Shown here piece after piece: positions 58,309 to 60,320 of a stretch of 64,000 nucleotides of DNA. Source of the stretch: Oceanobacillus sojae (GTDB lineage: Bacteria > Bacillota > Bacilli > Bacillales > Amphibacillaceae); the NCBI RefSeq assembly GCF_900162665.1, contig NZ_LT727812.1:343484-407483 (forward strand), given 5' to 3'. The first letter of the stretch is position 1. Every line of letters starts with the position of its first letter. The notes under the pieces were generated by a model, which saw nothing but the letters and a program-made list of their open reading frames with translations, did no database searches and was not told the origin of the DNA. The position numbers and the translations under genes were made by a program.

Positions 58309-58549
58309 TTAGAAAAATCCCCCCTGATTCATATATATGCTTCCATTGATGAAATTTTCATCCCAAAGCATTTTTCTCCTGCTGAACAGGAATATGATTA
58401 CTTCTTCTTTTCATGTAATCATTTCTTTTATTTTCTTTATTCTACCATTATTCACGAACATAGCCTATTACATAAGTAAATGTTAATAAAACTTAACAAA
58501 ACCTTGGAACGCATTAATCGTCAAAATTTAGAATAGATTACTTATTCAG
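58309..58549. other. phoPR upstream region
   Basis: About 240 AT-rich nt. Several TTAACA/TTAATAA-like words near 58470-58500 (AAATGTTAATAAAACTTAACA) recall Pho-box direct repeats, which would fit autoregulation, but spacing was not verified. No gene. Confidence 0.35.
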
Positions 58550-58673
58550 TCAACTTTCACAAAAAAATAATTTACTTATCATAGAGACAGGTGTTGATCG
58601 TTCCTTCCATCTATCTCTTGACAGAGCAAAAACTCTAGCTAGAAAGAAGGTAATATGTGAGGCTCACCGCTGC

Positions 58674-58791
58674 GGCGGACCGTTTTGCTTTCCTAGGGGC
58701 ATGCTCTTCAGCTAACTTTTGCCAAGAAGAGCACTTGGCAAAAGTGGATCTTCAGATGATGCTAATCCCTCAGGAGTCAAAACGGTCCGCC
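58674..58791 (+). repeat. two-stem structured element, copy 1
   Basis: Outer 14-bp stem GGCGGACCGTTTTG / CAAAACGGTCCGCC (58674-58687, 58778-58791) and inner 12-bp stem ACTTTTGCCAAG / CTTGGCAAAAGT (58715-58726, 58734-58745), both perfect. Confidence 0.75.
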
Positions 58792-59085
58792 TCCGCTAGA
58801 AGGGAATTCTATACCTTTTAATACAACGGAGCCAATAGAAATTAGATAGTAAAGAACATATTTTTCGTGGTGCATATAAAAGTGCCCCATCGCGATTACT
58901 TTCTGTTCATAAAAGCTATTCCCGATATTTATTATTCATGCTGTGTGGTGCGTCATAGTTTCAATTGCCAAATCAACCATTTAAAACACTAAAATGATCT
59001 TTTCATCAAGCAAAAAGCAATTATTTCATTCAACTCCATCTGGATATGATTCCTTTCATTCGCTGCAGAGGCCTAACTGAGCGCA

Positions 59086-59196
59086 GACCAGCCACGTAGA
59101 CTCCTATGGGACAGGGCGAGCTGAAGATCCACTTGAAAAGCGGGTTTCTTTTCAAGTTAGCTGAAGCCGTCCCCATGGAAAGCGGAGTGGTTGGTC
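59086..59196 (-). repeat. two-stem structured element, copy 2 (inverted)
   Basis: Outer stem GACCAGCCAC / GTGGTTGGTC (59086-59095, 59187-59196; one G-T pair) and inner 10-bp stem ACTTGAAAAG / CTTTTCAAGT (59131-59140, 59148-59157). The single-stranded linkers match copy 1, while the stems differ in sequence but still pair. Confidence 0.75.
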
Positions 59197-59358
59197 GGAG
59201 CGGAGCTATACACAATCTCCATTTCAATAAAAAGATGATTTAACAACATGCAAGAAGGATAATATAGAACATGCTCCTCTTAGAATAGTAAGGTATAGAT
59301 GCTTATTCTCAAGTGCGAAAGTTAAATTATTTAAATATAGTTCTGTTATTCTTTATAG

Positions 59359-59462: not shown

Positions 59463-60029
59463 TTAAATTTTCCCTGTTAATGTTCTCGGCTGTTTGTAAA
59501 ACAAAAGAAATACAACAATCAGACTCAGTATAAAAGATGGAATCATATACGATGAATTATAAATTAACGAATAGAGCCAGGCCGGCTGCCCTTCTACTGC
59601 AGATCCGAAGAAAACCATTCCTGCAATATAATGACAAACAAAACGCGCTGCAGACCCCAAAAATATTCCAATTAAAATATAGGAAAAAGCTTTCTTCATC
59701 TGCTTACCTTTTATACTTTCCATCACCTGTTTAGAGACTATTCCTGCCAGGCCGACAACAGTAAATGCCAGTCCATACTCAATAATCCCCTGTACTGGAT
59801 GCATAATGAAAGCTGTCCCTGTTGCAACCTGTAATACACCCCAAAGAAACCCTGATAAAAGACCGCCTTTAAGCCCCCAGCGGAAAGCAACAATAAAAAT
59901 AGGAATCATAGCAAAAGAAACAGATCCACCCTGTGGCCAAAGCTTAAATCCTATCGGTAAAATATCCAGTAATAATGCCAGCGCAGTAAATATTGCTACC
60001 TCTACTAAAAAAAGTGTTTTATTTTTCAA
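59463..60029 (-). CDS. thiT: ECF transporter thiamine-binding S component ThiT
   Basis: Binds thiamine in the membrane and works with the shared EcfAA'T module. A 188-residue protein with six hydrophobic segments; LWPQGGSVSFAMIPIFIVAF and RWGLKGGLLSGFLWGVLQ are the ThiT (YuaJ) signature, with IMHPVQGIIEYGLAF and ARFVCHYIAGMVFF further on. The TTG at 60027-60029 is 8 nt after GGGGG and gives the usual length; upstream starts add a segment unlike the family. A TPP riboswitch in its leader confirms the function. Confidence 0.94.
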   Translation of the reverse strand: MKNKTLFLVEVAIFTALALLLDILPIGFKLWPQGGSVSFAMIPIFIVAFRWGLKGGLLSGFLWGVLQVATGTAFIMHPVQGIIEYGLAFTVVGLAGIVSKQVMESIKGKQMKKAFSYILIGIFLGSAARFVCHYIAGMVFFGSAVEGQPAWLYSLIYNSSYMIPSFILSLIVVFLLFYKQPRTLTGKI

Positions 60030-60110
60030 TTCCTTTTCCCCCAAATACATGAAGCTATGACAATATAGATTTTGGTTTCTCCGTAGCTTCAACAGTCTTT
60101 TTTACACAAC

Positions 60111-60320
60111 AAAAAAGTAATGCCAAGGGAGTCTTCTTGATGGCGACATTCTTAAAAGAGAGTACATCTCTATAGAACATCTAAAACTCCGCTCACACAT
60201 TACTTTTATATCCATCAAAAAGTCCACAATCCCTACGCCAGCGCTAACTGACAGGTTCAAAGGGTCAGAACACAAATCGTGTTCACTCTCAGCCAATGGC
60301 TCCCCTTGCAGGCTTTTTTT
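60111..60320 (-). ncRNA. TPP riboswitch of thiT
   Basis: The minus strand has the THI-box order: AAGGGGAGCC, GGCTGAGAGTGAACACG, CTGACCCTTTGAACCTGTCA, then GCGCTGGCGTAGGGA (aptamer about 60222-60316). The expression platform is a long terminator with arms AAAAGTAATG (60198-60207) and CATTACTTTT (60113-60122), followed by TTG. Bound TPP should favour termination before thiT. Confidence 0.95.

Follow-up and report, generated by a model that had tools for sequence, protein, structure and literature searches.

The window, the whole 64,000-nucleotide stretch analysed, contains a non-autonomous transposon (MITE) that encloses two inverted copies of a unit of about 115 nt with a two-stem structure, here called the module. 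The features of the locus are the following:

58542..58548, no strand: left target duplication, TTATTCA, equal to 59327-59333 at 6 of 7 bases
58549..59326, no strand: non-autonomous MITE of 778 bp that holds both modules, with ends common to 28 aligned copies
58549..58562, plus strand: left terminal repeat, a degenerate version of CTCAACTTTCGCAC
58674..58791, minus strand (sense): module 1, outer arms 58674-58687/58778-58791, inner arms 58715-58726/58734-58745
58792..59085, no strand: spacer of 294 nt separating the two outward-facing modules
59086..59196, plus strand (sense): module 2, outer arms 59086-59095/59187-59196, inner arms 59131-59140/59148-59157
59313..59326, minus strand: right terminal repeat, degenerate
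59327..59333, no strand: right target duplication, TTATTTA

No transposase gene lies inside the MITE, and the sole overlapping ORF of at least 60 aa (59030-59227, 65 aa) runs across a module. Outside the element, the window holds an ordinary TPP riboswitch (60212-60316, minus strand) upstream of the ORF at 59463-60092 (minus strand), whose product we take to resemble a thiamine transporter.

A 778-bp transposon with two outward-facing modules

An earlier sequence-only reading of this DNA had described the two inverted copies, and they were found where it had placed them; weak matches to the Rfam family tsr24 give practically the same limits, and our covariance model matches over module 1 (G000:C17:402145-402284) and module 2 (G000:C17:402559-402691). 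Exact inverted repeats within 110 nt reach a length of 14, more than chance would give: the maximum in 300 dinucleotide shuffles is 12. The stem arms drawn in that reading were confirmed, except that only 9 of the 10 pairs in the outer stem of copy 2 are Watson-Crick, the tenth being A/C as it was written there and G/T on the other strand. The inverted arrangement also held, with the spacing corrected from about 400 nt to 294 nt, measured end to start.

A query of the Oceanobacillus genome with positions 58600-59300 gave 69 matches, 28 of them at least 479 of 701 bases long, and alignment of 28 copies with their flanks defined CTCAACTTTCGCAC as the common MITE end, read from the outside in. 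The 29 flank rows include 16 full MITE copies; the remaining rows were set aside, as five are IS copies, two contain N, in five the right end is false, and one spans two elements. In 12 of these full copies the 7-bp flanks differ at no more than one position, though the pairs L037/L040 and L043/L053 among the 12 may be mirror duplicates; shuffled flank pairing over all 29 rows gave 12%. In the relative G094 the flanks run on without the MITE, with a single TTATACA at the site, and in the relative G089 the MITE is present at the same place, spanning a contig break. The terminal repeats, the target duplications and the empty site in G094 thus identify the window element as a MITE. Of the two possibilities raised earlier, a mobile or a regulatory element, the first is the one supported, and it was incomplete: the two copies are the two arms of one 778-bp MITE, and their inversion is a rule of the family. 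A second candidate empty site, in P. globulus, where an 8-kb query breaks in two in strain EB02, the parts overlapping by 7 nt, was dropped as proof because the letter-level alignment of the intergenic flanks was noisy. Separately, identical flanks on one or both sides of MITE copies L035, L036, L037, L038, L039, L040 and L046 suggest recombination, segment duplication or misassembly between copies.

The Oceanobacillus genome also contains five letter-identical insertion sequences of 1530 bp that are bounded by the MITE end sequence and whose protein is an IS4-family transposase (NF049925, E 1.5e-183). The MITE thus shares its terminal repeats with an autonomous IS4-family element, its own ends in the window being degenerate; a perfect 7-bp duplication was seen at only one of the five IS4 copies. 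Both two-stem structures are therefore arms of a 778-bp non-autonomous transposon with IS4-type ends and a 7-bp target duplication. The two-stem module is absent from all five IS4 copies, so it is not needed by that IS4 transposase. As a general mobiliser of the paired units, the IS4 transposase was rejected, since none of four other Bacillaceae genomes held a match above the family cut-off, with one weak match in O. bengalensis; for the window MITE itself, IS4 mobilisation is retained as the probable route.

Module 1 is near-identical across most of 33 aligned MITE rows. Copy L033 is without it and has one AGCGG at the junction, in L034 it is inverted in place between its outer arms, and in L050 its inner part is replaced. 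Module 2 varies as little, apart from a palindromic insertion of 58 nt found in L034, L046 and L048. The modules being near-constant within the MITE, its copies alone reveal little on covariation, and other families were needed.

Several modules carry insertions of their own. In L043 (1528-2482) a 220-nt repeat starting GTCCAGCTAC sits inside module 1, and a second short hairpin repeat, around GATTACTCG(T/C)CC, lies in or beside the modules of L156, L157, L161, L162 and L164 of the Oceanobacillus genome. Bacillaceae-1 RNA (RF01690) was found at L152:980-1047 with 60.6 bits (cut-off 35; L152 was the one locus scored), and similar inserts were seen by eye within the modules of L156, L158, L159, L160, L034, L046, L048 and L050. 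Bacillaceae-1 RNA thus seems to be a palindromic repeat with other palindromes, these modules included, as its insertion sites.

Distribution and pairing of the module

A covariance model was built from a 20-row alignment; its counts per genome are lower bounds. The Oceanobacillus genome gave at least 103 matches (of 903 candidates, 150 were scored). Within the order, 44 of 61 sampled genomes, from 39 of 54 genera, carry the module; within the class Bacilli, 25 of 121 sampled genomes do, 21 of these outside the order. A pattern scan of named genomes yielded at least 92 loci in many genera, including Oceanobacillus, Lentibacillus, Virgibacillus, Paucisalibacillus, Aquibacillus, Ornithinibacillus, Pseudalkalibacillus, Pullulanibacillus, Gracilibacillus, Cerasibacillus, Halobacillus and others. 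Among plasmids, one Radiobacillus record carries the Bacillaceae form of the module, and no module match was found in phages.

In the 92 pattern loci and one plasmid locus, 112 model matches fell in 56 of the 93 loci. Where neighbours were closer than 600 nt, every one of the 50 pairs stood in the same order, minus then plus, with the 5' ends inside and the 3' ends outside, and 12 of the 112 matches were unpaired; the loci had been picked by a pattern for one module type, which biases the pairing rate, and we see no reason for a bias in orientation. The window pair follows this outward-facing order. Paired modules usually differ in their outer stems. Among the matches listed, the units that contain the pairs of O. 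halophilus, O. limi and P. globulus have other terminal repeats, so units of more than one kind carry the pair. A search for an autonomous IS with the Paucisalibacillus end sequence showed, among the matches listed, end pairs about 0.1-0.9 kb apart and one of about 4.2 kb. The module is widespread in the class Bacilli, and in the Bacillaceae it is found mostly as outward-facing pairs, within units whose ends are of several kinds.

Units between divergent genes are rare. Of 79 units in gene gaps, 7 lie between divergent, 55 between tandem and 17 between convergent genes, against 70, 192 and 50, respectively, of 312 gaps without a unit; these counts rest on crude gene calls, and one further unit lies inside a long ORF.

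Relation to tsr24 and to IS1182 ends

With Rfam curated cut-offs, no family matched over the window element. At a low threshold, tsr24 (RF02577) matched the sense strand of both modules (58674-58792, minus; 59086-59196, plus) with 23.1 and 20.1 bits, below the gathering cut-off of 50. Five of six other loci matched it at this threshold, the best being a Bacillaceae copy (35.7 bits, E 3e-5). In the class sample, four of the 121 genomes, which belong to a single genus, have tsr24 above its cut-off and in multiple copies, at least 16 in genome G126 (16 of 561 candidates scored), and among the matches listed nine tsr24 places hold a match to the module model. An S. aureus plasmid record carries tsr24 at 214 bits, adjoining the ISSau3 transposase gene; in this copy the last two thirds of the tsr24 model are matched near letter for letter and the first third poorly. 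The staphylococcal tsr24 copies align with the remaining modules in a 46-row alignment. The module is the core of Rfam tsr24. The element, which the sequence-only reading could not name, can thus be related to two named families, tsr24 and the IS1182 ends described below.

In G126 the module is found between the transposon end and the gene for a 545-aa IS1182 transposase (NF033551, E 1.6e-134), some 100 nt from where that gene starts, and points outward. The surrounding DNA matches 108 plasmid records, 105 of them from Staphylococcus, and IS1182 is annotated there in 13 of the best 25 of the 108. The module adjoins an IS1182 transposase gene or remnant in G126, in the S. aureus ISSau3 and in a Cerasibacillus relic; the window element has none. 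The relic, in Cerasibacillus terrae (L268), is a decayed IS1182 N-terminus beside a module in the same layout, with 56% identity over 40 residues (E 1.8e-6). In Staphylococcus the link of the module with tsr24 and IS1182 ends has good support, and in the Bacillaceae it is suggested by this one decayed gene. At G045 (L142:1-1467), an IS1182-like transposase frame, partly N, ends at 1325, and a module starts at 1338 on the same strand.

At the three IS1182 loci, S. aureus, G126 and C. terrae, a strong hairpin with a T-run lies 3' of the module. A simple terminator scan picked up the G126 hairpin on the inward strand only, gave no hit in S. aureus, and at the end palindrome of C. terrae detected two outward-directed sites. 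A terminator after every module was tested as a rule and found in 9 of 142 Bacillaceae cases against 1 in the control, and in 3 of 23 against 2, so a terminator-like site after the module is not a general feature; the window element itself has no terminator-like site and 5 promoter-like sites against 3.9 expected, which is no excess. In both staphylococcal loci the transposase gene contains, in its 5' part, a promoter-like site, judged by consensus match only, from which transcription would run outward through the module. Because of this position, an outward RNA may be considered as an antisense control of the transposase start.

In genome G191, a single-module element of about 300 nt lies between two copies of a palindromic terminator-like sequence at all three loci (L336, L337 and L338). 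The element duplicated this whole sequence when it inserted, and the flanking duplicates are exact over 26 nt in two of them and over 13 nt, within an imperfect repeat, in the third. No palindromic target duplication was found at the other 13 of 16 loci, where the longest flanking direct repeats are 7-20 nt. Some IS1182-family members target palindromic sequences and IS1272 carries out stem-loop replacement, according to passages of PMC5678879. The G191 duplication fits an IS1182-type mobilisation of that element, for which no transposase was found.

Covariation, strand bias and the nature of the fold

The sequence-only reading had taken the two copies to keep their pairing while their sequence changes, and the wider alignments confirm this. 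In the 20-row alignment, drawn from several genomes, 21 of 28 pairs changed on both sides, with a covariation score of 0.580 against 0.187 in shuffled alignments (0 of 500) and at most 0.170 in slid ones. The 46-row alignment comprises divergent copies aligned by sequence alone, 44 chosen from 56 representatives plus two staphylococcal IS1182 copies; here 26 of 29 pairs changed on both sides and the score was 0.543, against 0.159 in shuffled alignments (reached by 0 of 500) and at most 0.148 in slid ones. Helix 2 occurs as GCGGG/CCCGC (99), GTGGG/CCCAC (24), ACGGG/CCCGT (10) and ATGGG/CCCAT (8), with four one-sided intermediates between these forms. The covariation of the module stems is overwhelming, and copies other than those in the window share in it.

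The two strands of the module are not equivalent. The sense fold was predicted to be more stable than the antisense fold in 86 of 95 representatives and in 189 of 216 copies, and likewise in 88 of 95 representatives when DNA energies were used. In 166 outer stems there were 28 G/T cells against 5 A/C cells, which by eye amount to about 13 and about 4 independent events, respectively. Predicted G-U pairs were no commoner in the sense fold (2.2 against 3.1 in the antisense fold). Together, the stability and the G/T bias favour a single-stranded sense molecule, and they do not separate RNA from single-stranded DNA.

Our preferred explanation, which we consider reasonably likely, is that the module originated in IS1182 ends as a structured RNA, was captured by MITEs as inverted pairs, and gives an outward sense transcript. 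The module would have arisen as the RNA-forming part of an IS1182-type end, where transcription starting at the promoter-like site described above and running outward as far as the hairpin would produce a structured small RNA. Inverted pairs of modules would later have been captured by MITEs of other transposases, for example of the IS4 type in the window. With one module per strand, read-through from either side would always yield one folded sense copy. The fold and its mobility are established; the module most likely acts as an RNA, a function that we infer. The least certain step, offered tentatively, is that the host tolerates the insertion because of the structured RNA, which would stabilise or insulate 3' ends. 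In favour of the whole explanation are the ends, target duplications and empty site, the covariation, the wide spread and outward order of the modules, the links to tsr24 and IS1182, the hairpins with T-runs and the sense-strand bias. Against it count the low tsr24 scores of the window copies, the single decayed gene behind the IS1182 link in the Bacillaceae, the IS4 copies devoid of the module, the strand bias with DNA energies and the lack of a G-U excess, the few terminator-like sites after Bacillaceae modules, and the terminator-scan results for G126 and S. aureus.

The same fold might instead work as DNA, its arm hairpins being recognised by a transposase and needed in cis by gene-less copies. 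Gene-less units do hold a module on each side with the 3' ends outward (50/50), as expected of a cis-acting end, the DNA energies give an equal sense-strand bias, and the G191 element lies between duplicated palindromic terminators in 3/3 fetched copies. Yet the IS4 elements with the ends of the window MITE are without the module, modules occur in units with differing terminal repeats, and MITE copy L033, which may have moved in that state, is without module 1. On balance, we regard a DNA-level role as unlikely.

A further alternative dispenses with selection on the fold and has template switching or gene conversion between arms keep the palindromes perfect. The near-perfect arms and few intermediates accord with it, as does L034, whose module 1, inverted in place between the outer arms, demonstrates that arms do interact. 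Repair between arms leaves unexplained, however, why the unpaired letters GACTCC, GAAGA and GGAAAGCG are conserved through the 46 divergent copies, why covariation extends to short, interrupted inner helices (in helix 4, both sides changed in 8 of 9 pairs), and why the strands should differ, since a sense-strand bias does not follow from opposite arms of a double-stranded palindrome; we therefore hold this explanation to be improbable.

End-encoded RNAs guide or license transposition in IS110 and IS200/IS605 elements. By analogy, the RNA of an IS1182 end could take part in transposition, guiding or licensing a DDE-type transposase at palindromic targets. We give this idea very little credence; if true, gene-less elements would keep two copies because the RNA-forming module is needed, and a DDE-type transposase would have an RNA partner.

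The module could also be a repeat of the REP/REPIN type that depends on a RAYT (Y1) transposase for its movement. Intergenic palindromic repeats in inverted pairs, GTAG before ACTCC in copy 2 and Y1 transposase matches in 53 of 61 genomes speak for this, but it is most improbable, as the five Y1 matches of the Oceanobacillus genome are, by our reading, IS200-size or fragments in the face of 103 module matches, one weak module was found among 20 RAYT-like loci of 4.1-4.4 kb, and, among the matches listed, the module is present in 29 of the 36 genomes that have a RAYT-like gene and in 15 of the 25 that have none; RAYT/REP mobilisation, tried by a family search and at these 20 loci, was not supported.

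Under the preferred explanation of an RNA from IS1182 ends, tsr24-like transcripts would best be read as coming from multi-copy transposons rather than from a single regulatory gene. One covarying fold joins the orphan staphylococcal tsr24, an IS1182 end and a very common intergenic repeat of the Bacillaceae, and this link turns an unexplained repeat into a testable one: is there a transposon-made RNA, and why do two copies face apart?

Several known repeat systems resemble the module in part. Like NEMIS, ERIC, RUP and BOX, which are named in PMC3733652 and PMC3049150, the units are gene-less and intergenic, with terminal repeats and strong structure; here, however, the fold is a separate module common to units with differing ends and to IS1182 ends. 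A word search of PMC3733652 found none of Bacillaceae, Firmicutes and Geobacillus. REP/REPIN sequences with RAYT likewise form inverted palindrome pairs between genes, whereas the window module is longer, has several helices and showed no RAYT association at the 20 loci. Bacillaceae-1 RNA is a palindromic repeat of the same genomes, inserted in or near modules, but it differs in sequence and fold and is a guest, not the module, with no match in the window element.

The closest likenesses are with IS1182 and tsr24. IS1182 ends of the ISSau3 type have the module beside the transposase gene, directed at the transposon end; they differ in carrying one module per IS, as in G126, where the Bacillaceae have gene-less outward-facing pairs, and the ends of the window MITE are of the IS4 and not the IS1182 type. 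The names tsr1 to tsr39 were given to novel S. aureus sRNAs in earlier work of the same group, according to part of PMC7392542. The word tsr24 is absent from the main text of that paper, and in the open-licence literature we recognised no paper that describes the module or that identifies tsr24 with an IS1182 end. For the 5' third of the tsr24 model there is no good match in the Bacillaceae or S. aureus alignments, and the catalogue lists tsr24 as a small RNA of S. aureus, whereas the window module belongs to multi-copy, paired, gene-less units; the last two thirds of the model agree with the module in fold, conserved letters and strand.
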